DNA from: Lactobacillales bacterium
Lineage (GTDB): Bacteria; Bacillota; Bacilli; Lactobacillales; Vagococcaceae
DNA length: 46,233 nt
Assembly: GCA_015654945.1 (NCBI GenBank)
Contig: JAATGB010000098.1
Location: 1 to 46,233, forward strand
Direction: 5' to 3'
The position numbers and the translations under genes were made by a program. Under the pieces are notes generated by a model. That model saw only the letters and a program-made list of their open reading frames with translations. It was not told the DNA's origin and ran no database searches. This document shows, one piece after another, positions 28,657 through 46,233 of this stretch (positions are counted from its first letter, which is position 1; each line of letters starts with the position of its first letter).

Positions 28657-29142
28657 ATGCGTTGTCCAAAATGTCAGTACAATGGTTCGAAAGTTGTGGA
28701 TAGCAGACCCTCAGATGAAGGTCGTGCAATTAGAAGAAGAAGAGAATGTGAAAAATGTGGCTTTCGTTTTACGACTTTTGAAAGAATTGAAGCGTCCCCG
28801 TTACTCGTAATAAAGAAAAATGGCGATCGTGAAGAATTTAGTCGTGATAAAATTTTAAGAGGATTAATTCGTTCAGCAGAAAAACGTCCCGTTGCAATGG
28901 AGCAAATGGAACAAATCGTCGATCAAGTCGAAAACAAAGTACGAGATTTAGGTGAAAATGAAGTATCTACCACTTTAATTGGCGAATTCGTAATGGAAGA
29001 TTTGGTCAAACTAGATGAAATTGCCTATATTCGTTTTGCCAGCGTCTATCGTCAGTTTAAAGACATGAGCGTCTTTTTAAAAGAATTACAAGATATTGTA
29101 GAGAAAGATGATAAAACCACTGAATCAGATTCAAAAAAATAA
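28657..29142 (+). CDS. nrdR: Transcriptional repressor NrdR
   Basis: 161 residues. The zinc ribbon has Cys3, Cys6, Cys31 and Cys34, with [15 protein letters not shown]; an ATP-cone domain (~49-139) follows. NrdR senses ATP/dATP and represses ribonucleotide reductase genes. It heads the primosome operon nrdR-dnaB-dnaI as in other Bacilli. No reductase gene lies in the window. Confidence 0.97.
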
Positions 29143-29161
29143 TGAGAGAGGGGGATTATTT

Positions 29162-30586
29162 TTGGAAAGAGCTTTGAAACAAGTAAAAGCAAAGGACAGT
29201 TTTGTTGTGAGATTGTCAGCCCCTCTGAATAACACTGATTTTGAAGTCTTAAATTTTCTTTATCAACCAGTAATTGGTGCACATGCCTATGCTTTATGGA
29301 TGGCGTTAAAAGCGGAATTAGTAGAAACTCAATTCGAAAGTACTATCAGCTTACATGCCGAATTGTTTGAACGGATGGATAGTAGTATTCCTGATTTTTA
29401 TAATAGTCGGATCAAGTTAGAAGGAATTGGACTGTTGAAAACTTTTACCAAAGAAGTGGATTACGGACGCGATTTTGTCTATCTATTGTTGCCACCATCG
29501 ACGCCAGAAAAATTTTTCCAAGATGAGCTTTTGAGCTTGTTATTACTAGAAAAAGTAGGTGAAAAAAGGTTTAAACGTCTAATTCAACGCTTTGCTATCC
29601 CTAAGTTTAACGCTAATGAATACCATGAAATTACCAAAAAATTTCTGGATGTGTATGGTTTTCAGTCTGAAAGATTCCAAGCGCAATCAGAAGTTTTAGC
29701 GGAAGGGAAGAGCCATTTTTATTCGGCAGATGAACCGAAAAAAGCAACTGCTGTATCGGATTCGTTTGATTGGACTTATTTTAAAGGTTTGCTTAGTGGA
29801 CTTTATGTGGAAGCGAGTAGTATTGAAAATCTAAAAGAAACAATCTATACGTGGCACCATTTATACGGAATAAACGAATTGGAAATGCGTGATTTTTTGT
29901 CACAATCAGTCGATTATGTAACAAATGAAATTAATCAGAAAGAAGTAGAAAAGAATATTTATCAAGCCTTTCATCAAGAAAAACAGCAGGAAAGTGTTGT
30001 AAATCATTCTTCAGAAACGTCATTATCAGTAGAAGATAAACAAAAATATCGTTACAATAGCTTGCTGCTAAATGGATTTTCAGAAGGTGAAATCGGTGTG
30101 ATCGTTTCCAGTGAAAGTATTGCGCCAATGATTTTTTTGGAGGCAATTAAGAATCAAAAAGGCGGGTTTGTATCTAGATATGAAACGTGGGCAGTGGAAA
30201 GTATTAAGAAAAATGCCAATTTGCCAGATGCGGTCATCAATGTTCTGATTCATTACGTTTTAGTCGCGCAAGGAAATGCGACGTTTGATCAAAAATATGC
30301 GGAACGGATTGCCAATGATTGGGCGCAGAAGCAAATCAGTTCTCCTGAAATGGCGATGGAAAAAGTCAAAGAATTGTTGCAAGAAAAAAATGCGCGACAA
30401 GCAAAGCGTAACCAACCGCAAGCAGCCTATGCACGAAACAAAGCCGGCTCGAATCGAAAAGAATCGTTGCCAGATTGGGCAAACCATGAAGTCGTAGCAG
30501 AAACCCCCTTAACCAAAGAGGAAGAAGCTTACTTTGAACAACGAATGAAAAGATTGGAAACAAATAACAAAGGTGGTGAAAGATAA
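29162..30586 (+). CDS. dnaB: Replication initiation and membrane attachment protein DnaB
   Basis: 474 residues from a TTG at 29162, 7 nt after agggggg-like agggg (29149-29154). An ATG at 29108 inside nrdR lacks a ribosome site and is rejected. This is the Firmicutes DnaB (not the helicase), which helps load the replicative helicase with DnaD and DnaI; it has winged-helix and DnaD-like domains. Its C-terminal tail (RKESLPDWA ... ETPLT ... YFEQRMKRLE, 30455-30559) reappears in the prophage replisome organizer. The last base of its stop overlaps the dnaI ATG. Confidence 0.92.
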   Translation: MERALKQVKAKDSFVVRLSAPLNNTDFEVLNFLYQPVIGAHAYALWMALKAELVETQFESTISLHAELFERMDSSIPDFYNSRIKLEGIGLLKTFTKEVDYGRDFVYLLLPPSTPEKFFQDELLSLLLLEKVGEKRFKRLIQRFAIPKFNANEYHEITKKFLDVYGFQSERFQAQSEVLAEGKSHFYSADEPKKATAVSDSFDWTYFKGLLSGLYVEASSIENLKETIYTWHHLYGINELEMRDFLSQSVDYVTNEINQKEVEKNIYQAFHQEKQQESVVNHSSETSLSVEDKQKYRYNSLLLNGFSEGEIGVIVSSESIAPMIFLEAIKNQKGGFVSRYETWAVESIKKNANLPDAVINVLIHYVLVAQGNATFDQKYAERIANDWAQKQISSPEMAMEKVKELLQEKNARQAKRNQPQAAYARNKAGSNRKESLPDWANHEVVAETPLTKEEEAYFEQRMKRLETNNKGGER

Positions 30587-35874: not shown

Positions 35875-35923
35875 TTTGCCTACCATTTGCCAACATCAGG
35901 GCTTACGGTAGGCAAACTTTTTT
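35875..35923 (+). terminator. lepA terminator and probable left prophage junction
   Basis: TTTGCCTACC (35875-35884) and GGTAGGCAAA (35907-35916) form a perfect 10-bp stem followed by C and seven Ts. The loop starts with a second ATTTGCC copy. The integrase stop lies at the edge, so attL should be within about 35830-35922; the core cannot be fixed without the right end. Confidence 0.7.
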
Positions 35924-37056
35924 TATTTAGAAATTCTTTCTTCGAAGATATCAACAGTTTCTTGTTGCATTTTTTTAGTTAAATGAGAGTAAGTATCTGT
36001 CGTAGTAGAAGCACGAGAATGTCCTAGCCTTTCTTGAATCGCTTTTATTTTTGCACCCGATTCCATGAGCAGCGTTGCGTGTGTGTGTCGCAACGAATGA
36101 AAATTAAAGTCAATGCCTAACTTCCTTTGGATGTTCGTGCAAGACCATTTTATTGAATTCGGAGTGACGAGCTTACCATTTTCTTTAGTGCAAACGAAAT
36201 TGCTATCCTGATATTCCGCTTGGTAGAACATCTTATGTTCTAATTGATGTTTTCTGTGAGTTTTCAACTCTCTATACAGAGTTTCACCAAAGGAAATCTC
36301 TCTATACGAAGATTGAGTTTTCGGTGTTCCAATTTGCCAACCGCCGTATGTGTTAATGATTGTTTTATTTACTTTGAGTGTTTTTTCTTCTAGATTAACG
36401 CAATCCCATGTCAATCCGCACACTTCTCCTCGGCGCATTCCGGTATGAAAGCCAAGGAGTAGGGGAATATAAAAAGAATTTTCAGGTCCAACGAACCCTA
36501 AAATCTTTTTGTAATCTTCAATTGTATTTACTTTTAGTTTTTCTTTTGTTTTTTTGTTATATTGATCATATTTGGGCATTTCAATGTACTGCATAGGATT
36601 GCTTTTAATAAGTTGCCAAGGATAAACAGCTTTTTTTAGCGCTCCTTTTAGCACTGTTACAATAATTTCTACAGTATGCTTTGCCAAGCCCATATCGGGT
36701 AATTCATTAACTAATTCTTGTAATTTTGCCGGACCAAGTGACTTCAATTTTAATTTTCCAATTTCAGGTTTGATATATTTTTTTATCACGTTTAGATAAT
36801 TAATTTGTGTGTTGTATTTAAGATTCTTTTTTACGTAATTTTCGTACCAGTAATCAAAATAATCAGAAACACTGATATTTGATAGATCAATACTTTCTCC
36901 GTTTTCGTAATCAGTTATAGCTTTTCTTAGCGCAGCCTCCGCCTCTGGTTTCGTCAACCCGCCTACACGTTCGATTCTTTGCCTTTTTCCATCAATTTTG
37001 GCAGCTTCAAACGAATAATACCATTTTTCGCCACGTTTCCTAACAGAACCTTCCAT
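35923..37056 (-). CDS. Prophage tyrosine integrase
   Basis: 377 residues. An N-terminal arm-binding domain (SVRKRGEKWYYSFE) and SAM-like core-binding domain (about 60-160) precede the catalytic domain. The catalytic set is visible: Arg in TGMRRGEVCGL (208/209), H320-x-x-R323 in HSLRHTH, H346 in LGHS and the nucleophile Y356 in TYSHL. It integrates and excises the phage. ATG 37056 is preferred to 37065, since aaagga overlaps the latter. It faces lepA, the usual arrangement at attL. Confidence 0.95.
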   Translation of the reverse strand: MEGSVRKRGEKWYYSFEAAKIDGKRQRIERVGGLTKPEAEAALRKAITDYENGESIDLSNISVSDYFDYWYENYVKKNLKYNTQINYLNVIKKYIKPEIGKLKLKSLGPAKLQELVNELPDMGLAKHTVEIIVTVLKGALKKAVYPWQLIKSNPMQYIEMPKYDQYNKKTKEKLKVNTIEDYKKILGFVGPENSFYIPLLLGFHTGMRRGEVCGLTWDCVNLEEKTLKVNKTIINTYGGWQIGTPKTQSSYREISFGETLYRELKTHRKHQLEHKMFYQAEYQDSNFVCTKENGKLVTPNSIKWSCTNIQRKLGIDFNFHSLRHTHATLLMESGAKIKAIQERLGHSRASTTTDTYSHLTKKMQQETVDIFEERISK

Positions 37057-37080
37057 ATTTGTCATTCCTTTCGTATTTTT

Positions 37081-37096
37081 TTCGTATAAATACGAA
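37081..37096. repeat. 16-bp palindrome upstream of integrase
   Basis: TTCGTATAAATACGAA is a perfect palindrome, with another TTCGTAT at 37070-37076 in direct orientation 11 bp away. A likely protein-binding site (repressor, excisionase or integrase arm). Confidence 0.6.
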
Positions 37097-37121
37097 TATA
37101 TGTTCTTCTTTAGTTGAAAAG

Positions 37122-37136
37122 AAAAGCCCGAAGGCT
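37122..37136 (-). terminator. Terminator of the prophage lipoprotein gene
   Basis: On the minus strand AGCC-TTCG-GGCT (a UUCG tetraloop in RNA) followed by TTTCTTTTC. Short but stable. Confidence 0.7.
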
Positions 37137-37146
37137 AGACTTCTTA

Positions 37147-37743
37147 TTATTGTATCGGAAAATCCGTTCTGCCAAATTCCGTACCTAAGCCATTTTCAGC
37201 GATGAGCGTGACAGGAGTTGTTGCATCAGTAAGTGTATACGCTACAGCCATTTGAACTGTACCACCCGGCTTAATTTCTTCCATTTGCGAATCTAAAAAT
37301 TTGCTGTCTGGTAAGGAAGCGACATTTAATTCATTGATTGCGTTTGGGTCGTTATCCTGAACAGCCTTAAAATTTGAAATCCAAGACGTGACAGGGTCTA
37401 TAGGCTGTGAGTTGTCGTAATCAGGAGCAACTAATGTATCGTACCAAAAAGCGATTACAGGGCTATCTCCATATTCATTTCCTGTTTCGCCCGGTTGAAT
37501 AATTTTGTGGTCAGTAATCTTTATTGTGTAAGTATTTCCTTTTAAAACTGTTCCATCAAAATTCGCATCTTTTGCGCTTTTAACAAAATCGCTACTTGTT
37601 TCTGATGTTTCTACAGCTGATTCTTTTACTACATCGGAACTTTCAACTTTTTTCGAATTGCTTGAAGAATTTTTTTCTGAACTACACGCTCCTAAAACCG
37701 CTAAGCTTAATACCAATAACCCTAATACTTTAACCTTTTTCAT
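37147..37743 (-). CDS. Prophage-encoded lipoprotein (DUF5067-like)
   Basis: 198 residues. A lipoprotein signal peptide with lipobox LGAC (Cys20), then a Ser/Lys/Glu-rich linker (about 21-55), then a beta-rich domain containing the YTIKITDHKII and KPGGTVQMAVAYTL strands, as in DUF5067 proteins. It would be anchored outside the cell membrane. Lying between repressor and integrase it would be expressed in the lysogen, the place where superinfection-exclusion or other lysogenic-conversion genes sit; that role is inferred. Its own hairpin terminator separates it from int. Confidence 0.8.
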   Translation of the reverse strand: MKKVKVLGLLVLSLAVLGACSSEKNSSSNSKKVESSDVVKESAVETSETSSDFVKSAKDANFDGTVLKGNTYTIKITDHKIIQPGETGNEYGDSPVIAFWYDTLVAPDYDNSQPIDPVTSWISNFKAVQDNDPNAINELNVASLPDSKFLDSQMEEIKPGGTVQMAVAYTLTDATTPVTLIAENGLGTEFGRTDFPIQ

Positions 37744-37765
37744 TTCTTTCTCTTCCTTCTATATT

Positions 37766-38434
37766 TTATCTACCTATAATAGCATATAAGTATTTGCCAA
37801 TAATTTTGACTTCAATATCCATATCGTTTGTATATTCAAATGCTTTATAATCAGGATTGTAACTATCAGGTTCAAATAAAATTCGATTTGGAGTCTTATA
37901 CATGTGTTTCAAAGTAGCCTCATATCCATTGATTATGACACCGCAAATATCTCCTTGCGAAACATCATCTGTTTTTAGCAAGATAGCTATTGCCCCATCT
38001 GGAATTACTCTATTCATGCTATCCCCATTGACTCTAAGAGCTATAAGATTTTCTTCACCGTATTTTTCAATTACTTCAGATTGGATTTCTATTTCTCCAT
38101 CGATTTCTTCTTCTGCGCCTTCGGGATTTGATGCTACAATTCTACCATAAATGGGGATCGTATTAGATTCAGATGTTGCACCAGATATAGGGATTTCAAA
38201 AGAACTTAGAAATTTGTTTACATATCCTTCTTTCCCATTTAATAAAAAATCAACTGGAACATTAAATAATGAACTTAATTTTGTCAATTCGTCAGTCTGA
38301 ACTTTTCTACTTCCGTTTTCTATCTTGTTCATCATAGACTTTTCTATTCCTAACCTTCGCGCAAGTTCGGCTTGACTCCAGTTCTTGGATTCTCTTAAAT
38401 TAATTATTCTAGAAATCATAGAATCATCTAACAT
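37766..38434 (-). CDS. CI-like prophage repressor (XRE HTH plus S24 peptidase)
   Basis: 222 residues. HTH at about 7-62 (WSQAELARRLGIEKSMMNKIENG), then a LexA/UmuD-type S24 domain with nucleophile Ser139 (NGDSMNRVIPDGA) and Lys176. Such repressors keep lysogeny and cut themselves when RecA is activated. The expected cleavage dipeptide, normally Ala-Gly, appears to be Ala101-Ser102 (GRIVASNPEG). The ATG at 38434 follows aaggag. It is divergent from the Cro-like gene. Confidence 0.93.
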   Translation of the reverse strand: MLDDSMISRIINLRESKNWSQAELARRLGIEKSMMNKIENGSRKVQTDELTKLSSLFNVPVDFLLNGKEGYVNKFLSSFEIPISGATSESNTIPIYGRIVASNPEGAEEEIDGEIEIQSEVIEKYGEENLIALRVNGDSMNRVIPDGAIAILLKTDDVSQGDICGVIINGYEATLKHMYKTPNRILFEPDSYNPDYKAFEYTNDMDIEVKIIGKYLYAIIGR

Positions 38435-38511
38435 TAGTCTTCTCCTTTCGTTGCTATTATGACAACAATTTTACCACTGATTTAAAATAATATATAAAAA
38501 AGTGCGAAAAA

Positions 38512-38577
38512 AGATACGAAAATACTTGACGTATCTATAATCGCAATGTATTATATAGATATAGGTTGCGATATCTA
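38512..38577. promoter_or_regulatory. Lysis-lysogeny operator region between cI and cro
   Basis: Three nested inverted repeats: AGATACG-N11-CGTATCT (38512-38536), ATCGCAA-N19-TTGCGAT (38540-38572) and TAGATAT-N8-ATATCTA (38556-38577). They cover the rightward promoter TTGACG (38526-38531) with TATTAT (38549-38554), spacer 17. They are candidate binding sites for CI and the Cro-like protein. Confidence 0.75.
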
Positions 38578-38597
38578 AAAAGAAGGAGGTGTTAATA

Positions 38598-38825
38598 TTG
38601 TATAAAGTGAATTTACAGCTTATTAAAGATTCGAGATTGGAAAAAGGATATTCTCTTCAAGAAATGGCTGATTTAATGGGATTTAACGACAAAGCAAAAT
38701 ATTTCCGTCGCGAAACTGGAGAGTATAATTTTAAGCCAGAAGAGATTCCACAAGCAGCAAAAATTTTAGGGATTCCGCTAAAAAATTTTTTTATCAAAAA
38801 AGTATCGAAAATCGAAATAAATTAA
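38598..38825 (+). CDS. Cro-like XRE-family regulator
   Basis: 75 residues with one helix-turn-helix (SLQEMADLMGFNDKAKYFRRE). The start is a TTG at 38598, 7 nt after a perfect aaggaggt (38583-38590); the in-frame GTG at 38589 overlaps that site. First gene of the rightward early operon, opposite the repressor, as expected for Cro. Confidence 0.85.
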   Translation: MYKVNLQLIKDSRLEKGYSLQEMADLMGFNDKAKYFRRETGEYNFKPEEIPQAAKILGIPLKNFFIKKVSKIEIN

Positions 38826-38911
38826 AAAGATTGTATATTTCTGTCACAAAACATTACAAATTTCGTATTTATAAGTGTAAGGCAAATAAAAAAGTTTAGA
38901 GAGGAGAAACT

Positions 38912-39670
38912 ATGAATCAAATCCAACTGTTTAATTTTAAAGATCAACCTGTTAGAACCGTGCTTATTGATAACGAACCTTGGTTTGTTGCAAAGGATGT
39001 TACGGAAATTTTAGAACTTAGCAACCCGACAGTGGTTATCAATCGTTTAGACGATGACGAACGGGCTAAGTTGAACTTAGGGCGTCAAGGTGAAACGAAC
39101 ATCGTTAATGAATATGGTCTTTATCAATTAGTCCTTGGTAGTAGAAAACCAGAAGCAAAAGAATTTAAGCGATGGATTACGCACGAAATTATTCCATCTA
39201 TTCGAAAAACTGGTTCGTACTCCATATACAAAGATGAACGTTTTAATATTCCGACGAATTTAATAGATGCTTTGAGGTTGTCGGCTGATTTGGAAGAAGA
39301 ACGGCAAGCGTTGCAAGTGCAAATCGAAACGGACGCTCCATATACATCATTTGGGAAAATTGTTTCTTACTCAAGCAGTGCAGTCAGTATCGGTGAGTTT
39401 TGCAAAATAGTTTATGACAAACATGGAATTTCCATTGGGCGCAATAAAATGTTCGATTGGCTTCGAAACCGCGGTTATCTGATTAAACACGGGAGAGAAC
39501 GAAATAATCCAAAACAACAATATGTTGAACAAGGGTTATTCGTTAGCAAACCGGCAATTATTTCTAGAAGTATCGGAAACGTACAAGAAGCGACAACGTT
39601 AATCACAGGAAAAGGACAAGTTAAAATATCAGATCAACTGCTTAAAGAATTTCAAATTAGTTTAGCATAA
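38912..39670 (+). CDS. Phage antirepressor (Bro-N and KilA-C type domains)
   Basis: 252 residues. The N-terminal Bro-N domain is clear (PWFVAKDVTEILELSN ... RLDDDERAK ... NEYGLYQLVLGSRKPEAKEFKRW-x-T-x-E-I-I-P-S-I-R-K-T-G). The C-terminal half has the antirepressor KilA-C pattern (SIGEFCKI ... IGRNKMFDWLRNRGYLI). Such proteins counteract repressors or control the early genes. ATG 38912 follows gagaggag. Confidence 0.92.
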   Translation: MNQIQLFNFKDQPVRTVLIDNEPWFVAKDVTEILELSNPTVVINRLDDDERAKLNLGRQGETNIVNEYGLYQLVLGSRKPEAKEFKRWITHEIIPSIRKTGSYSIYKDERFNIPTNLIDALRLSADLEEERQALQVQIETDAPYTSFGKIVSYSSSAVSIGEFCKIVYDKHGISIGRNKMFDWLRNRGYLIKHGRERNNPKQQYVEQGLFVSKPAIISRSIGNVQEATTLITGKGQVKISDQLLKEFQISLA

Positions 39671-39731
39671 CGTAATTGTACATCTATAAAACCAGTATCG
39701 CACATTAAAAAATACGAAAGGAGAGGAATAA

Positions 39732-40262
39732 ATGCCACGGACAGCAGTAATAGGAAAAGATTTAAGGGCTGTAATGGAAGAAGAAAACTTGCAACAGAAA
39801 TATATTGCTTACGATACCAACACGCCACTGACTACTCTTAACGGACATGTTAAAGGCGGTAGAGTCAACGCAGATAAAGCGGTCCAATATGCCGAATCAG
39901 TTAACAATAGCAACTTCTCGTTAGGACTAGCAAATAAGTTCTTCGGAACGCTAAAAAGTCTTGACGGTGACTTGCTTAACACAGATTCTCCAAATGATTT
40001 AGAAATCATTCAAGAATTTGAAGCCGAAGAACGAAAAGAGCACAAGCTAGAAGCTCAACGAATACTAGCGAAGCGAAAAAACAAAATTACCTTAGACGAT
40101 AAGCAAGTATTAATTGCTTATGCAAACGAATTTCTCGATGAGATCGCACTAGAAACGACAATCGTTGTTTCGATATTCAAAATTTGCGGTTTATCAATCA
40201 TGGCAGCAGTTAAAAAGCGCATGCCTTACTGGATTAAGAAAGGCTATATGAGAAAGGAGTGA
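39732..40262 (+). CDS. Phage early protein with probable N-terminal HTH
   Basis: 176 residues, not firmly recognised. The N-terminal part (KDLRAVMEEENLQQKYIAYDTNTPLTTLNGHVKG) looks like an XRE-type helix-turn-helix. The middle is charged (EFEAEERKEHKLEAQRILAKRKNK), and the C-terminal ~50 residues form a hydrophobic-basic helix. Homologous genes sit behind antirepressors in other Firmicutes phages. The ribosome site aaaggagagg is preceded by ATACGAA. Confidence 0.8.
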   Translation: MPRTAVIGKDLRAVMEEENLQQKYIAYDTNTPLTTLNGHVKGGRVNADKAVQYAESVNNSNFSLGLANKFFGTLKSLDGDLLNTDSPNDLEIIQEFEAEERKEHKLEAQRILAKRKNKITLDDKQVLIAYANEFLDEIALETTIVVSIFKICGLSIMAAVKKRMPYWIKKGYMRKE

Positions 40263-40267
40263 TAGAA

Positions 40268-40516
40268 ATGAATTACAAGGTCAAAGAAGCCGCGAAAGAG
40301 CTGAAGTGCGGTGAGAACGTTATCAGACATTTGATCGCAGATGGTCGAATAAAGACTATGAAATTGCCTACACAGGTTATCCCGGATTTCGAACTAGATC
40401 GTTTTAGAAAAGAAGCGTTGTCTACGCAAGAGGATTTAAGTAGATATGCTGACAAAGATTTTTTAAAAAAAATTAGATCAAACGAACAAAAACAAAAAAT
40501 TTATCAAATGAGGTGA
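40268..40516 (+). CDS. Excisionase-family DNA-binding protein
   Basis: 82 residues. The N-terminal winged HTH of MerR/excisionase type is visible: KVKEAAKELKCGENVIRHLIADGRIKTMKL, followed by DFELDRF. It could be the directionality factor for the integrase or an early regulator. ATG 40268 lies 8 nt after aaaggag; the in-frame GTG at 40259 overlaps that site and the previous gene. Confidence 0.82.
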   Translation: MNYKVKEAAKELKCGENVIRHLIADGRIKTMKLPTQVIPDFELDRFRKEALSTQEDLSRYADKDFLKKIRSNEQKQKIYQMR

Positions 40517-40521
40517 ACAGA

Positions 40522-40674
40522 ATGTCAACAAAATCAATAAAAGACCGAATGCCGGCATATGAATATAAGAACATCGAAATAGTAACAGTAGATGGAAGAC
40601 GTGTAGTGAAACGCGATGGTGTGATCGTAACGCCTAAAGAGGTGCATAAAACGAGAGGAGCGAGAAGAATATGA
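40522..40674 (+). CDS. Small phage early protein (50 aa)
   Basis: MSTKSIKDRMPAYEY... to ...TRGARRI, 50 residues, basic. ATG 40522 follows gaggtgaacaga, five bases after the previous stop, and its stop overlaps the next ATG (ATGA at 40671). Tight packing and coupling support it as a gene. Function unknown. Confidence 0.65.
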   Translation: MSTKSIKDRMPAYEYKNIEIVTVDGRRVVKRDGVIVTPKEVHKTRGARRI

Positions 40675-40871
40675 AACTTATTAATTTTATAGTCAATAAA
40701 TTTAAGTTGTACGGAATCACGTTATATAGTTTGCTTTTAGGATTGATTATCGGTTTAACAGTAGAAACAACAATCCAATTCTGGTGGATATTAGTTTATA
40801 TCATCTTGGGGCTATTAATGTTACTAGGGTACGCATATCTTGCATATATATTACGAAAAGAAGTGATATGA
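40671..40871 (+). CDS. Small phage membrane protein (66 aa)
   Basis: 66 residues with two predicted transmembrane helices (about 14-32 and 36-60) and basic ends. Upstream ribosome site gagaggag. Its stop (40869-40871) directly precedes the next small gene. Function unknown. Confidence 0.65.
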   Translation: MKLINFIVNKFKLYGITLYSLLLGLIIGLTVETTIQFWWILVYIILGLLMLLGYAYLAYILRKEVI

Positions 40872-41048
40872 ATGTTAAACACAGAGCAAACGCATTTACT
40901 TGAAAACTTAGTCAAAGAAAAGCTTGCAGATATTGAATCAATTAAACGATTTGAGAGTAAGAAAGAGATTAGAAATAACAAACTACTCAAAGACTTAGAT
41001 ATTGTAACAAATGAATATCTAGCGATTAAGGAGGAATTAAAACGATGA
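40872..41048 (+). CDS. Small helical phage early protein (58 aa)
   Basis: 58 residues, MLNTEQTHLLENLVKEK... to ...AIKEELKR, highly charged and helical, probably coiled coil. It fills exactly the gap between two genes, with its stop overlapping the next ATG (ATGA at 41045). Function unknown. Confidence 0.6.
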   Translation: MLNTEQTHLLENLVKEKLADIESIKRFESKKEIRNNKLLKDLDIVTNEYLAIKEELKR

Positions 41049-41341
41049 AGCTCAAAAAAATATTGATAGTTGCAATCTTGATTGTTTTAGCAATAGCATT
41101 GGTGGCACAAATCCACTACAGCTATAGCAAGATTAATTTCCTCGAAGACAAACTAGAGCAATCCAAAAAAACAAACACAATCGATAACGACTACGTGATA
41201 GTCAAGTTCAACAAAAGTAAAGACGCGGTAGGTTACTACACGATTACGCTAGTAAATAAAAACATGGATACGAAGTTGCAAACAGAATTTACTGAGGGAA
41301 ATGGGGCAGCAGTGGTTTATAACGAATCAAAAAAAGACTAA
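41045..41341 (+). CDS. Small single-pass membrane/secreted phage protein (98 aa)
   Basis: 98 residues. One N-terminal hydrophobic helix (about 5-23) after MKLKK, then a short coiled segment (SKINFLEDKLEQSKK) and a beta-type tail. It may be membrane anchored or exported. aaggaggaa precedes it inside the previous gene. Function unknown. Confidence 0.65.
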   Translation: MKLKKILIVAILIVLAIALVAQIHYSYSKINFLEDKLEQSKKTNTIDNDYVIVKFNKSKDAVGYYTITLVNKNMDTKLQTEFTEGNGAAVVYNESKKD

Positions 41342-41418
41342 CAAGGATTGCAGTCCAAGTTAGCCGTTTACAAATAATTTTTATGTGCTTAGTATATCAC
41401 GAAAAAGGAGAGAGGACA

Positions 41419-41634
41419 ATGAGCACTTACGACTCACTAGGAGCGCAGATAGAACCGATCGAGCGGAAGGTAGTTGCGTACGACTATCAAGGGCAAGAGA
41501 TTTACGCAGAAGACACCGTGATTGAAATGCCAGATGGAATCTATGTTTTCCTTGGCGATTTAAAAGAATATTTGAACGAACTCGACTACAAAGAATTACT
41601 TGAACTTGTCGAAGCAAAGGAGGTTACAGTGTGA
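41419..41634 (+). CDS. Hypothetical acidic phage protein before YqaJ
   Basis: 71 residues from ATG 41419 (aaaggagagagga upstream). Acidic; contains a strand-turn pattern, IYAEDTVIEMPDGIYVFLGDL, then an acidic helix. Its last bases overlap the GTG of the exonuclease gene (GTGA at 41631), so it is translated with the recombination module. Confidence 0.7.
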   Translation: MSTYDSLGAQIEPIERKVVAYDYQGQEIYAEDTVIEMPDGIYVFLGDLKEYLNELDYKELLELVEAKEVTV

Positions 41635-42575
41635 AACAGTCAACTTTAAAAATGACCCACGAAGAATGGCTTCTAGATAGAAGAAAAGGCTTAGGGGGGA
41701 GCGATATAGCGACTGTTCTAGGGCTGAACAAATGGAAGTCACCTTATCAATTATGGTTAGACAAAACGGGTCAGATTGACGTTAAGGAGCAAGAGCAAAG
41801 CGAACCTGCTTATTGGGGAAACGTTTTGGAAGAGGTGGTAGCTAAAGAGTTCCAAGAACGAACTGGCAAACGAGTAAGAAGGCGGAATCAAGTCTTTGAG
41901 CATCTGAATTATCCATTTTTAAGAGCGAATATCGATCGTGATGTAATTGGAGAAAATGCGATCCTTGAATGCAAAACAGCTAACGCCTTTCTTGGCAAAG
42001 AATGGGAAGGTGAAGAGGTCCCTTTGAGCTATCTTTGTCAAGTACAACACTACATGAATGTTTTAAATAAGGATTATGCGTATTTCGCGGTGCTTGTTGG
42101 AGGGCAAAAGTTTATATGGAAAAAAATTGAACGAGATCAAGAACTGATCGATGCCATCACTAAAAAATTAGTTGATTTTTGGGAAAACAACGTATTAAAA
42201 GGTATCGAACCACCGCTTGACGGATCAGAAGCAACGACAGAATTCGTTAGAAACGCAACACTTAAATTATCAGAAAAAGAAGTCGAGTTTTCTTCGAACG
42301 TTGACGAATTGTTAGATACGAAAGCAGATTTAGAGAAAACGGTCAAAGAATTAACGACTGAAATAAAAAAGATTGACAATCAAATTAAATTTTCTTTTAA
42401 AGAAAAAGATGCAAGTATCGCTATTACACCAAAACGAATTATTACGTATAAATTACAAAAACGAGTGCAATTAAATAAAAAAAAGGTTGAAGAAAAGTAT
42501 CCGGAAATTGTTAAAGACGAATCGTTCTACACAATATCAGAGTTCAGAATTTTAAGAGAAAAGGGGATCAGATAG
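41631..42575 (+). CDS. YqaJ-type phage recombination exonuclease
   Basis: 314 residues with the YqaJ viral recombinase fold. Motifs: the HEEWLLDRRKGLGGSDIATVLGLNKWKSPYQLW start, E in WGNVLEEVVAKEF, the catalytic D and E-x-K in NIDRDVIGENAILECKTA, and the Q-V-Q-H-Y helix. The C-terminal ~100 residues are coiled. It resects double-stranded ends to give substrate for RecT. The start is GTG 41631. Confidence 0.93.
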   Translation: MKQSTLKMTHEEWLLDRRKGLGGSDIATVLGLNKWKSPYQLWLDKTGQIDVKEQEQSEPAYWGNVLEEVVAKEFQERTGKRVRRRNQVFEHLNYPFLRANIDRDVIGENAILECKTANAFLGKEWEGEEVPLSYLCQVQHYMNVLNKDYAYFAVLVGGQKFIWKKIERDQELIDAITKKLVDFWENNVLKGIEPPLDGSEATTEFVRNATLKLSEKEVEFSSNVDELLDTKADLEKTVKELTTEIKKIDNQIKFSFKEKDASIAITPKRIITYKLQKRVQLNKKKVEEKYPEIVKDESFYTISEFRILREKGIR

Positions 42576-42577
42576 AA

Positions 42578-43492
42578 ATGGCGACAAATGAAAGTTTAAA
42601 GAACCAATTAACAGAAACAAAACAAGAAGTTAATGCTCAATCACTAGGCTTTAAATCATTGATGAATACACCGACAATGAAAAAGAAATTCCAGGACATA
42701 TTACACGACAAATCAGACTCATTTATGGGATCGCTTATGACGTTAGTAGGTGGGGACGACTATTTAGCTAAAGCGGAGCCGATGACGATCATTGCTGGAG
42801 CGTTAAAAGCTGCGACGATGGATTTACCTATTGATAAAAATTTAGGTTATGCCTACATCGTTCCGTTTAACCGGAGCGAAAAAGTTGGTAGCAAATGGAT
42901 TAAGCACAACGAAGCACAGTTCATTCTTGGGTACAAAGGATATATTCAACTGGCTCAACGATCAGGACAATACAAAGCGTTAAACGCATTAGAAATTTAT
43001 GAAGGTCAATTAGTCAGCTGGAATCCTCTAACGGAGGAGTTTGTTTTTGATTACGAAGCAAAACAATCGGATGAAGTCGTCGGGTATGTCGGATTTTTCG
43101 AATTATTAAACGGTTTTAAAAAGACTGTCTATTGGACCAAACAAGAAATTGAGAGCCATCGAATCAAAAATGCCAAAGGATATGAAAAAGAAAAATTAAG
43201 TGGTGCGTGGAAGGATAACTACGATGCAATGGCCACAAAAACGGTTTTAAGAAACCTTTTAAGCAAGTGGGGCATTTTATCAGTAGAAATGCAAACAGCC
43301 GTTATATCCGACGAGAAAGTATTCAGAGCAACGACAGAAGACGGTTCGTTGATTGAAGAGGTAGAAATTAAGCAAGCCGAACCTGCAACAGAGGAACCAG
43401 AAGAGAAATTAAATTTTCAACGTGATCAAGAGAATGAAGAAAGTCAAACAGCATTATTTGATGATAAGAAACCGCCATTAAGTGATGATTAA
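42578..43492 (+). CDS. recT: RecT single-strand annealing protein
   Basis: 304 residues of RecT family: the AKAEPMTIIAGALKAATMDLPIDKNLGYAYIVPF core, QFILGYKGYIQLAQRSGQY and KDNYDAMATKTVLRNLLSKWG. It anneals complementary strands. Two bases after YqaJ, forming a RecE/RecT-like pair. An acidic disordered tail (about 270-304) may bind SSB or other partners. Confidence 0.96.
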   Translation: MATNESLKNQLTETKQEVNAQSLGFKSLMNTPTMKKKFQDILHDKSDSFMGSLMTLVGGDDYLAKAEPMTIIAGALKAATMDLPIDKNLGYAYIVPFNRSEKVGSKWIKHNEAQFILGYKGYIQLAQRSGQYKALNALEIYEGQLVSWNPLTEEFVFDYEAKQSDEVVGYVGFFELLNGFKKTVYWTKQEIESHRIKNAKGYEKEKLSGAWKDNYDAMATKTVLRNLLSKWGILSVEMQTAVISDEKVFRATTEDGSLIEEVEIKQAEPATEEPEEKLNFQRDQENEESQTALFDDKKPPLSDD

Positions 43493-43511
43493 TTACCGTT
43501 TTAAATAACAA

Positions 43512-43530
43512 GAGAGGGTTTATCCCTCTC
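43512..43530 (+). terminator. Stable hairpin between recT and the replisome organizer
   Basis: Perfect GAGAGGG / CCCTCTC stem with TTTAT loop, followed by GGCTTTAT rather than a full T run. It may be a weak terminator, attenuator or RNA processing site. Confidence 0.5.
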
Positions 43531-43561
43531 GGCTTTATAAAAAAACAGGAGGTATGAGAAC

Positions 43562-44578
43562 GTGGCAATTTATCGACAGCTACACACCACTTTTTGGAAA
43601 GATGATTTTATAGGAAATTGCAGCCAAAAAGAAAAACTATTCTTCCTCTACCTGATTTCTAACGACAACACAACTCAAAGCGGTGTGTATGAATTTAACA
43701 AGCGATATGCCATATTTGAGTTAGGCGTCAGCCAATCGGAAATAGAGGAAATGATCAACAAATTTCATAAATATAAAAAAATCATATATGACAGAGAAAC
43801 AAATGAAATTCTTATTGTGAACTGGCTGAAATATAACAACGCCAATTCGCCAAAAGTGTCAACGGTAATCGACAAAGAATTAAGAGATATCAAATCGATT
43901 GAATTTAAAAAAGTGATCATCAAAAAATGCTCTGAATATAAGTATCCGATACGGACAAAAATAGAGAATATAGGCAATCCAAGTAAAAAATCTGAACAGA
44001 AAAGCTTGGATACGGTATCAATACCCTATCAATACCCTATCGATATAGTACCGATAGAGTATCCATATAGTACCGATACTGATCCACAACAGAACAGAAC
44101 AGAACAGAACAGCAATACAATACAACAGAACAGAACAGCAACAGAACAGAAGACCGATGCGGTTAATCAGGCCGACACGGATACTGATTCTAAGCTGACC
44201 CCTTACAAATTTTTTCAAGAGTGCTTTGGAACTCTTAATTCTGTCAACTCCGAAGATATCACATATTGGATTTCTGATCTAGGAGAAGACTTGGTCTGTG
44301 AAGCTATGAAAAGAGCGGCTCTTGACAATAAGAGTTATAGCTACGCAAAAGGAATCATGAAAAAGTGGGCAAAGAATAATATTACGACAATGGAACAGGT
44401 ACTTGCTGAAGATGTAAAGTTCGAAAATAACCGAGTGAAGAGCTACAACAGCAACCCGTCGCCTCGCAAAGAAACGCTGCCTGAATGGGCGACAGCTGAA
44501 CAGGCAGAAGAAACGCCGCTAACGGCAGAGGAAGAGGAATACTTCAAAGAGCGGATGAAAAAATTGAATAAGGGGTGA
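43562..44578 (+). CDS. Phage replisome organizer (DnaD-like, origin-binding)
   Basis: 338 residues. The N-terminal part (1-~105, MAIYRQLHTTFWKDDF start) is the winged-helix replisome organizer domain; a variable linker (~130-205) follows; then a DnaD-like domain (~212-285) with the DnaD family motif Y261-x3-I265-x3-W269. The final 35 residues match the C-terminal tail of host DnaB. Related phage proteins bind the phage origin and recruit host DnaI and helicase. The linker-coding DNA holds the 11-bp and 5-bp repeats described separately. The start follows acaggagg; GTG at 43562 initiates. Confidence 0.92.
   Translation: MAIYRQLHTTFWKDDFIGNCSQKEKLFFLYLISNDNTTQSGVYEFNKRYAIFELGVSQSEIEEMINKFHKYKKIIYDRETNEILIVNWLKYNNANSPKVSTVIDKELRDIKSIEFKKVIIKKCSEYKYPIRTKIENIGNPSKKSEQKSLDTVSIPYQYPIDIVPIEYPYSTDTDPQQNRTEQNSNTIQQNRTATEQKTDAVNQADTDTDSKLTPYKFFQECFGTLNSVNSEDITYWISDLGEDLVCEAMKRAALDNKSYSYAKGIMKKWAKNNITTMEQVLAEDVKFENNRVKSYNSNPSPRKETLPEWATAEQAEETPLTAEEEEYFKERMKKLNKG
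44016..44081. repeat. Six contiguous 11-bp iterons inside the replisome organizer gene (putative phage origin)
   Basis: Units at 44016, 44027, 44038, 44049, 44060 and 44071: TATCAATACCC twice, TATCGATATAG, TACCGATAGAG, TATCCATATAG and TACCGATACTG. Consensus TAYCNATANNS; seven positions are invariant or two-fold. The 11-bp unit shifts frame each time, so the regularity is of DNA, not protein. Confidence 0.8.
44088..44149. repeat. Ten copies of the 5-bp repeat AACAG next to the iterons
   Basis: AACAG x5 (44088-44112), an 11-bp interruption with two CAATA-like units, AACAG x3 (44124-44138), one C, AACAG x2 (44140-44149). The top strand is almost free of T. It encodes a Q/N/R/T/E linker. Confidence 0.85.
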
Positions 44579-44582
44579 ACAA

Positions 44583-45374
44583 GTGAAACGAATACTAAAC
44601 TATCCCGGCAGCAAATGGCGATTAGCAGAACAAATTATCGATTTGATTCCTGAACACACAACATATCTGGAGCCGTTTTTTGGATCGGGAGCAGTATTTT
44701 TCAGCAAGGATCCGTCAACGGTTGAGACAATCAATGATTTAGATCAGCGAGTTGTCAATTTTTTCCGAGTCTGCCGTGAACAACCAGAAAAATTGGTTTA
44801 TGCAGTAAATATGACGCCACACAGCAGATATGAGCAGCAGCATGCTAGAGAGATCGTACAAGACCCGCTCGAAATGGCTCGGCTTTTCTTGATCGACAGT
44901 TGGCAGTCGATTGGTGGTGTGCAAAGGCACCACACTGGTTGGCGATCGAATATTGATAAAATCGGTGGAAAGTTGCAAGAGTGGAATGAGATTGACGATC
45001 GAATTTGGGACGTGGCGGAGCGATTAAAACATGCCCAGATTGAGAACCAGGACGCACTTAAATTGTTACGGAGATACAACAGAAAAGATGTTTGTGCTTA
45101 TGTAGACCCGCCATATGTTTTAAACACGCGCAAAGGAAGGCTTTATCAGACGGAATTAGGCGACGAACGACAAGAAGAACTGCTTGCGATCTTAAATGAT
45201 TTTAAAGGCTCGGTCATATTGAGTGGCTACGAATCAGAATTATACAATCAAAAATTAGCTGAATGGCACAAGATTTACTTTGACGCAAACGCAGAAGCTG
45301 GTCAGAGTCGTAATGAAGTAATTTGGTGCAATTTTGAACCTAGCGGACAGACGAGTTTATTTGAACAGGGGTGA
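44583..45374 (+). CDS. D12-class DNA adenine methyltransferase (Dam-like)
   Basis: 263 residues. N-terminal YPGSKWRLA, SAM-binding motif LEPFFGSGAVFF, and catalytic motif DPPY in YVDPPYVLNTRKG identify the D12 (Dam, often GATC) family. Phage copies protect DNA from host restriction or time replication. GTG start at 44583 after aaggggtg, four bases after the organizer stop, hence co-translated with the replication module. Confidence 0.93.
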   Translation: MKRILNYPGSKWRLAEQIIDLIPEHTTYLEPFFGSGAVFFSKDPSTVETINDLDQRVVNFFRVCREQPEKLVYAVNMTPHSRYEQQHAREIVQDPLEMARLFLIDSWQSIGGVQRHHTGWRSNIDKIGGKLQEWNEIDDRIWDVAERLKHAQIENQDALKLLRRYNRKDVCAYVDPPYVLNTRKGRLYQTELGDERQEELLAILNDFKGSVILSGYESELYNQKLAEWHKIYFDANAEAGQSRNEVIWCNFEPSGQTSLFEQG

Positions 45375-45378
45375 GGGA

Positions 45379-45519
45379 ATGAAAATGGAAAATTTAATCG
45401 AAGAACTTGAAATGGAAAAAATACATTATGACAATTTAGAGCAAGTAGGATTTAATTGTGCTGTTGACATTGTGAAGAGCTATGCGGAACAGCTAACAGA
45501 AGAACAGGAAGAAGAGTAA
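45379..45519 (+). CDS. Small acidic phage protein (46 aa)
   Basis: 46 residues, MKMENLIEELEMEKIHYD... ending EEQEEE; helical and very acidic. ATG 45379 or 45385 fits the gtgaggga region. The stop overlaps the YopX ATG (TAATG at 45517-45521). Function unknown. Confidence 0.65.
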   Translation: MKMENLIEELEMEKIHYDNLEQVGFNCAVDIVKSYAEQLTEEQEEE

Positions 45520-45914
45520 TGAGAGAGGTAAAGTTTAGGGCGTGGGATAAGAAGAACAAAATGATTGTGACTGATGACGAGAATGACGAATCGCGATATT
45601 TAGACGGTATAATCGGAACGCCAGTGGGTATGGTTAATTATTGGTTGAATGACAAGTACACGCTAGATGACTATGTTTTTATGCAATACACTGGCTTTCT
45701 AAATCTATATGATAAAGACATTTGCGAAGATCGAAATGGTAATAGATTTATGATAATGTGGTCAGAATTGTTCCATGGTTGGTGTTACGTATACTATCTA
45801 GGAGATTGTAGAGAATACTTGCTATATAAGCTAATACAGCGTATAGGAGATTTTAAAGTTTTAGGCAACATCTACGAGAATCCAGAGCTGTTAGGAGGTA
45901 TTGAGGATGAATAA
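45519..45914 (+). CDS. YopX family phage protein
   Basis: 131 residues beginning REVKFRAWDKKNKMI, the YopX signature, with the later MQYTGFLNLYDKDICEDR and VLGNIYENPELL. Widespread in phages of Firmicutes; function unknown. The ribosome site is within the previous gene. Confidence 0.93.
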   Translation: MREVKFRAWDKKNKMIVTDDENDESRYLDGIIGTPVGMVNYWLNDKYTLDDYVFMQYTGFLNLYDKDICEDRNGNRFMIMWSELFHGWCYVYYLGDCREYLLYKLIQRIGDFKVLGNIYENPELLGGIEDE

Positions 45915-46137
45915 GTACCCAGACGTCTATATATTAGGCAGACAAGTAAACGGTGTGTACGTTGAGTATAAGCCATCAGGGATAAGAGAACTCAAAAATG
46001 CGCAAGATAAAGCCGAATGTCTAAACCAAGAATTGGCAAGACTTGCCATACCAAATTTTTCAATCGAAAAAGGCGAGTGGAAAGTTTTAAAATATGGCAC
46101 ACCTAAAACTGTGGAGGTAGATGATGAAAGTGACTAA
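45907..46137 (+). CDS. Hypothetical phage protein (76 aa)
   Basis: 76 residues, MNKYPDVYILGRQVNGVY...; not recognised. ATG 45907 is 7 nt after aggaggt (45893-45899), which rules out the in-frame TTG at 45901. It overlaps the YopX end by 8 bp. Confidence 0.72.
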   Translation: MNKYPDVYILGRQVNGVYVEYKPSGIRELKNAQDKAECLNQELARLAIPNFSIEKGEWKVLKYGTPKTVEVDDESD

Positions 46138-46233
46138 ATACGGAGTAGCTACTATTTGTTACGGTCGAGAAGTAGACCGGAATTGGTATTCTACGAAAGA
46201 AGAAGCTGAAAAGAGAACGAGGGGCGAAGTGAA
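46124..46233 (+). CDS. Partial small phage protein at the window edge
   Basis: Open from ATG 46124 to the edge (36 codons): MKVTKYGVATICYGREVD... Upstream ggaggt (46113-46118) lies 5 nt before it; the preceding ATG 46121 is also possible. It overlaps the previous gene. Function unknown. Confidence 0.55.
   Translation, partial: MKVTKYGVATICYGREVDRNWYSTKEEAEKRTRGEV

Follow-up and report, generated by a model that had tools for sequence, protein, structure and literature searches.

In the lactococcal phages TP901-1 and Tuc2009, the replisome organizers bind regions rich in direct repeats within their own genes, and these regions were determined as the phage origins (PMC8965321). The record of Tuc2009 orf16 (Rep2009) carries the remark 'contains origin of replication', and in this gene about eleven 5-bp units come immediately after 11-bp iterons; the repeats of TP901-1 (ORF13) are 15 bp long. 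In phage 80alpha, a putative rep_origin is annotated in gp20, where 15-bp iterons occur together with a TAATAAT tract. The pSK41 rep gene contains four 23-bp iterons between the regions for its N- and C-terminal domains, followed by a tract with a 15-bp step (TGATACTGATTTTAT). The central linker of pSK41 Rep, encoded by the origin, is dispensable as protein, and in the hybrid initiator of pPR9 a phage-type N-domain was exchanged together with its origin as one block (PMC5703833). Unwinding in phage lambda depends critically on an AT-rich tract next to the iterons (PMC7466680). At the bacterial oriC, DnaA boxes adjoin a short repeated motif, the DnaA-trio, and the initiator assembles into a filament on this motif (PMC6669920).

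The DNA analyzed here (the window, 46,233 nt) is one entire contig of a draft genome. Its left part, read from the open reading frames, is presumably chromosomal (polA, mutM, coaE, nrdR, dnaB, dnaI, lepA). The start of a prophage is marked by an integrase gene (35923-37065) immediately downstream of lepA, and the prophage is truncated by the contig end, because of which a second origin may lie elsewhere in it. The gene under study is preceded by RecT and YqaJ genes and followed by a D12-class adenine methyltransferase gene, all identified by domain matches; the RecT recombinase gene (42578-43492, + strand; PF03837, E 9e-45) is the upstream neighbor, in a replication/recombination module. An Rfam search of 36000-46233 returned no match.

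A replisome organizer (phage replication initiator) of 338 aa is encoded at 43562-44578 on the + strand, with a GTG start, and was identified by PHROGs, Pfam and TIGRFAM matches (phrog_6251, E 1.9e-52; phrog_186, E 8.9e-37; domains TIGR01446 DnaD_dom and PF07261 DnaD/DnaB_2). No AAA+ domain was found in the protein by profile searches against the same three collections. The N-terminal domain (43562-43990, + strand, residues 1-143; AlphaFold2 pLDDT 88) is a predicted winged-helix DNA-binding domain, an identity that, like the helical phasing of the iterons described below, is model-based. In Foldseek it matched viral replisome organizers well, the named matches reaching E 1.9e-7, and winged-helix MarR proteins and the RepA initiator N-domains 4pt7/5kbj only weakly; no PDB entry was matched by sequence when the N-domain profile was used as query. 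The C-terminal DnaD/DnaB_2 domain (44207-44407, + strand, residues 216-282; PF07261, E 9.6e-14) is presumed, from the role of its family, to be the helicase-loading part. In the full-length AlphaFold model the N-domain (residues 9-125) and the C-domain were confidently predicted and the linker between them (residues 148-208) was disordered (pLDDT < 50); this linker is exactly the segment encoded by the repeats. Judged by domain matches and structure models, the gene encodes a replisome organizer that has, like those of the Tuc2009/TP901-1 kind, a predicted N-terminal DNA-binding and a presumed C-terminal loading domain. The C-terminal tail (KETLPEWA...EEEEYFKERMKKL; 44474-44575, + strand) is common to the organizer and the host chromosomal DnaB helicase-loading protein, which is encoded 14 kb away (ORF 29108-30586); organizer residues 255-336 (44324-44575) and the C-terminal part of host DnaB (30287-30559) are 46% identical. 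KETLPxWA-like tails also end many other phage organizers, suggesting that this tail may mimic a host helicase-loading contact.

Two adjoining repeat arrays lie in the linker region. The iteron array (44016-44081, + strand; sequence, Tandem Repeats Finder and shuffle test) consists of six near-palindromic 11-bp units, TATCAATACCC TATCAATACCC TATCGATATAG TACCGATAGAG TATCCATATAG TACCGATACTG, and all six fit TAYCNATANNS, as an earlier note made from the sequence alone had stated. The array has the best period-11 score in the 46-kb window (32; runner-up 11), and the maximum across 5,000 synonymous-codon shuffles of the organizer gene was 22 (0/5,000). The ten AACAG units that the same note had placed just after the iterons were found within a somewhat longer short-step tract of twelve 5-bp units (44086-44151, + strand; 12.4 copies in Tandem Repeats Finder, with a start at 44086 or 44088), composed of ten exact AACAG and two AATAC units with two single-C insertions. 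Its score of 38 is the best period-5 score in the window (runner-up 13), and the shuffles reached at most 30 (0/5,000). Since none of the 5,000 shuffles reached either score, both arrays exceed what protein sequence and codon usage would lead one to expect. The coding strand of the tract is 59% A and 23% C (38% GC) and, as had been noted, poor in T (3%). The duplex is as stable as its gene: its dG per step is -1.29 compared with -1.28 for the gene, and it is more stable than 64% of gene stretches of equal length. The tract is therefore not weak DNA. Ease of melting is not enough to make it an opening site, and opening there would need active help; the earlier suggestion of an opening site is retained here as an inferred role.

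Compared with the described systems, the window resembles Tuc2009 and TP901-1 in having direct repeats within the organizer gene, and Tuc2009 also in combining 11-bp iterons with 5-bp units. It is unlike Tuc2009 in the repeats themselves and in the C-domain, since the Tuc2009 iterons are of the CAACCAAATGA type and not palindromic, the tract is AGGAT/AGGTT, and the C-domain is Rep_Org_C and not DnaD. With lambda O and ori-lambda it shares mid-gene iterons and a purine-rich tract adjoining them on the same side (PMC7466680), whereas the lambda iterons are about 20 bp long and the tract is AT-rich with weak periodicity; the N-domains showed no evident sequence relationship. The lambda-type pattern of an AT-rich or low-stability tract beside iterons was not found in the window tract. 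Like pSK41, which has a winged helix-turn-helix N-domain and a DnaD-like C-domain (PMC5703833), the window has iterons between the two domains and a periodic tract after them; pSK41 differs in its longer iterons, its 15-bp step and its N-domain family, to which the window N-domain has no sequence match and only the weak fold match to 4pt7/5kbj. The definition of the RepA_N group includes semi-palindromic direct repeats as iterons inside the initiator gene rep (PMC7145576, PMC5703833); the window has such iterons, but membership by sequence was not found: the only Pfam match is PF07261, and the N-domain profile has no PDB match beside that weak fold match. The DnaA-trio is comparable in placing short repeats beside double-strand sites, and the logic proposed below is analogous to it; it advances by 3 nt (consensus 3'-GAT-5'), whereas the phage tracts differ in sequence and have steps of 5, 6 or 7 bp, and the window tract (5 bp, AACAG) was accordingly not assigned to the DnaA-trios.

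Tandem repeats were compared among related phages in a census. About 390 loci were collected by N-domain similarity and, with earlier loci, reduced to 229 genes, which were scanned for tandem DNA periodicity at thresholds chosen by the analyst, with 573 flanking ORFs as control. Four N-domain families were distinguished: C (that of the window), A (PF09681 Phage_rep_org_N), B (PF14297 Lin1244_N) and T (Tuc2009 type). In this sample, drawn by N-domain similarity, a short-step tract was present in 104/114 genes of type C, 37/40 of type A, 24/26 of type B and 24/30 of type T, compared with 12/573 flanking ORFs; a few organizers had no recognizable tract anywhere in the collected DNA. Iterons were clearest in types C (period 11 in 86 of 96) and T (period 11 in 21 of 27) and were fewer and less regular in types A and B. 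The commonest layout, iterons and a 5-, 6- or 7-bp tract no more than 60 bp apart, occurred in 116/229 genes and in none of the 573 flanking ORFs. The iterons preceded the tract in 124 of 141 cases, at a median gap of 9 bp in type C and 1.5 bp in type T, and the coding strand of the tract was 79-88% purine, depending on the family. What these tracts have in common is strand asymmetry and a short step, not a weak duplex.

The step follows the N-domain family. It was 6 bp in 35 of 37 type A tracts and 5 bp in all 24 of type B and all 24 of type T; type C tracts had 6 bp in 94 genes, 7 bp in nine and 5 bp in one, that of the window. On a tree of 128 type C and T N-domains, tract step required 5 changes, against 31.8 for shuffled labels, and the window stands as a separate switch from 6 to 5. 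Among genes with the same DnaD C-domain the step differs by N-domain family, and the C-domain was rejected on this ground as the determinant of the tract in favor of the N-domain; the block exchange in pPR9 agrees with a step that goes with the N-domain and not with the C-domain. The consensus iteron of family C, TAT[CG]NATA[CG]N[CG], is nearly its own reverse complement (self score 6.79, reverse complement 6.57, other registers 2.53), and the window iterons are typical of this family. The supposition that the repeats are specific to this phage therefore held for the 5-bp step, which is unusual, and failed for the iteron, which is of a type common to phages across Bacilli and Clostridia. The nearest relative of the window on the tree (L131) has AACCAG units, so that at L131:2911-3040 a 6-bp unit stands where the 44016-44151 region has the 5-bp AACAG, every unit having changed length together; this joint change would imply array homogenization.

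Selection on the DNA of these arrays, argued earlier from unit lengths that are not multiples of three, is now shown more strongly by synonymous shuffles, codon phases, non-coding copies and the N-domain tree. All 100 synonymous shuffles were exceeded by 88% of type B and T tracts, 62% of type A and 53% of type C; a 6-bp step keeps the reading frame, and therefore part of the regularity of type C and A tracts may be at the protein level. A perfect AAAGT or AGGAT repeat places TAA or TAG in each third unit. In the 5-bp tracts of two other N-domain families, the cores AAA (92-100%) and AG (91-99%) were kept across all three codon phases, with T as the fifth base in 77-89% of units for two of the phases and in 0-3% for the phase in which it would create a stop. 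The genetic code is thus a veto on a DNA repeat and not its cause. The same elements occur outside coding sequence. In Clostridium rectalis (L108) the organizer gene has no tract, and about 60-160 bp past its stop codon come GGGGCTAT-type iterons and a 7-bp tract rich in stops, two elements that are intragenic in sister Clostridium genes. Four 22-bp iterons and eight AAAGT units fill a non-coding gap between an organizer gene and a gene for a DnaC-like loader in L467, and comparable non-coding sets lie near the organizers of L452 and L462 (the latter recognized by PHROGs). At two further loci, L461 (163-633) and L450 (minus strand), the organizer reading frame terminates within a perfect AAAGT tract; both organizers are of the Lin1244_N type and consist of the N-domain alone, and in L461 a DnaC-like loader follows.

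These observations bear on the idea that the repeats have no function as DNA and are slippage products tolerated in a disordered linker. Slippage does generate tandem repeats, and residues 148-208 are indeed disordered, polar and of low complexity. Unit sequence, however, is kept across widely diverged genes, iterons and tract are non-coding in L108, L467, L452 and L462 and end the frame in L450 and L461, the layout matches known origins, and in pSK41 the DNA of the Rep linker is the origin, although the linker peptide can be dispensed with (PMC5703833); slippage without a DNA function is considered very improbable. Nearly as improbable is an autoregulatory operator or incompatibility site of the organizer, with the true origin elsewhere. 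Iterons, including those of iteron plasmids, often double as regulators, but an operator would be unusual 450 nt into the gene, and the homologous Tuc2009 and TP901-1 arrays were determined as origins (PMC8965321).

Two further alternatives concern the tract. An iteron origin with an ordinary AT-rich unwinding element, in which the tract is thermodynamically weak and its short period incidental, has the lambda precedent (PMC7466680) and the averages of types A, B and C, whose tracts are less stable than most of their genes (median rank 0.04, 0.01 and 0.12). The window tract, at 38% GC and stabler than most equal-length gene stretches, was the ground on which an AT-rich melting element was rejected as a sufficient account of this locus; type T tracts, at 39% GC, compare with 36% in the remaining gene, and weakness predicts neither a family-specific step of 5, 6 or 7 bp nor cores conserved in three phases. 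This explanation is consequently judged unlikely. Slightly less so, and still doubtful, is a single-stranded loading site for the C-terminal DnaD domain, not read by the N-domain. At the B. subtilis oriC, the strand facing the DnaA-trios carries pairs of 5'-TnnT-3' to which DnaD binds (the DnaD recognition element, DRE; PMC10201434). The C-domain here is of DnaD type, the strand complementary to the T-poor strand of the window tract is rich in T, and TnnT is slightly enriched on it (0.391 per base vs 0.331 shuffled), as it is in type C overall (0.565 vs 0.468). TnnT is depleted, however, in types A (0.199 vs 0.309) and B (0.269 vs 0.412), so that it was not supported as a common account, and one and the same DnaD C-domain accompanies steps that differ by N-domain family.

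The arrays exist, are selected as DNA and match known origins; their layout and step are conserved along with the family of the N-domain. The host gene, the position in the linker and the precedents of Tuc2009, TP901-1, 80alpha and pSK41, whose experimentally supported or annotated origins show the same layout, uphold the earlier reading of an intragenic phage origin, and the mid-gene repeats are very probably the phage's own replication start site. In the mechanism preferred here, the organizer N-domain would bind the six iterons on roughly one face of the helix, and the bound organizers would form a nucleoprotein array ending beside the AACAG tract. The tract would be the second functional half, strand-asymmetric and read at a fixed short step by the N-domain or by the oligomerized initiator; there the strands may be opened, or one strand held, and the C-terminal DnaD domain would then load the helicase. 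The tract is most likely an element for stepwise initiator engagement and opening, and DnaA-trio-like logic with a longer step would be the most economical reading by analogy. The account as a whole, a prophage theta origin within the initiator gene, with iterons bound by the N-domain and a tract that opens DNA or holds a strand for helicase loading, is considered probable. A broader proposal is put forward tentatively, at somewhat less than even confidence: that Bacillota phage origins share a previously undescribed strand-asymmetric tract, its step (5, 6 or 7 bp) set by the N-domain family, which serves as a DnaA-trio-like register for stepwise binding of the initiator to one strand, and that the phage of the window switched from 6 to 5.

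To our knowledge, DNA opening by initiators without an AAA+ motor has been little studied in Gram-positive phages. The iteron-plus-tract layout seems common to hundreds of related phages and its second half apparently undescribed before; a short-step tract was not found described in the open-access literature, which leaves aside the primary lactococcal papers and does not prove absence. As the layout is recognizable from sequence and its step predictable from the N-domain, origins can be predicted to the base in hundreds of cases, and whether phage initiators step along a strand at fixed intervals, like DnaA on DnaA-trios, becomes directly testable. Odd low-complexity peptides in organizers (QNRTE, SKVKE, EIEIDIE, EKEKEK) are also explained, as side products of origins.

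Several minor observations were made on individual loci. An exact search of viral contigs for the 7-bp pattern matched unrelated repeats with no organizer nearby. Five consecutive AAAGT units lay near organizer genes in 5/19 cases compared with 0/10 for a reversed control pentamer, small numbers from which one of the five (L464), where the match overlaps an ORF resembling an HNH endonuclease, is discounted. Perfect AAAGT tracts without a recognized organizer in the vicinity were also seen, close to genes for head proteins, terminase or methyltransferase (L454, L456, L463), and in L456 TTACTCT repeats directly precede the tract. The DnaD organizer of phage BUCT702 (L043), listed with Stenotrophomonas as host, is typical of Bacillota in style and has a TAATAC tract; either the recorded host may be incorrect or the module may have moved. 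In Oenococcus phage Krappator27 (L048:1472-1531) the order is reversed, an AATGAC tract coming first and three ACGAATCGTGG iterons after it.
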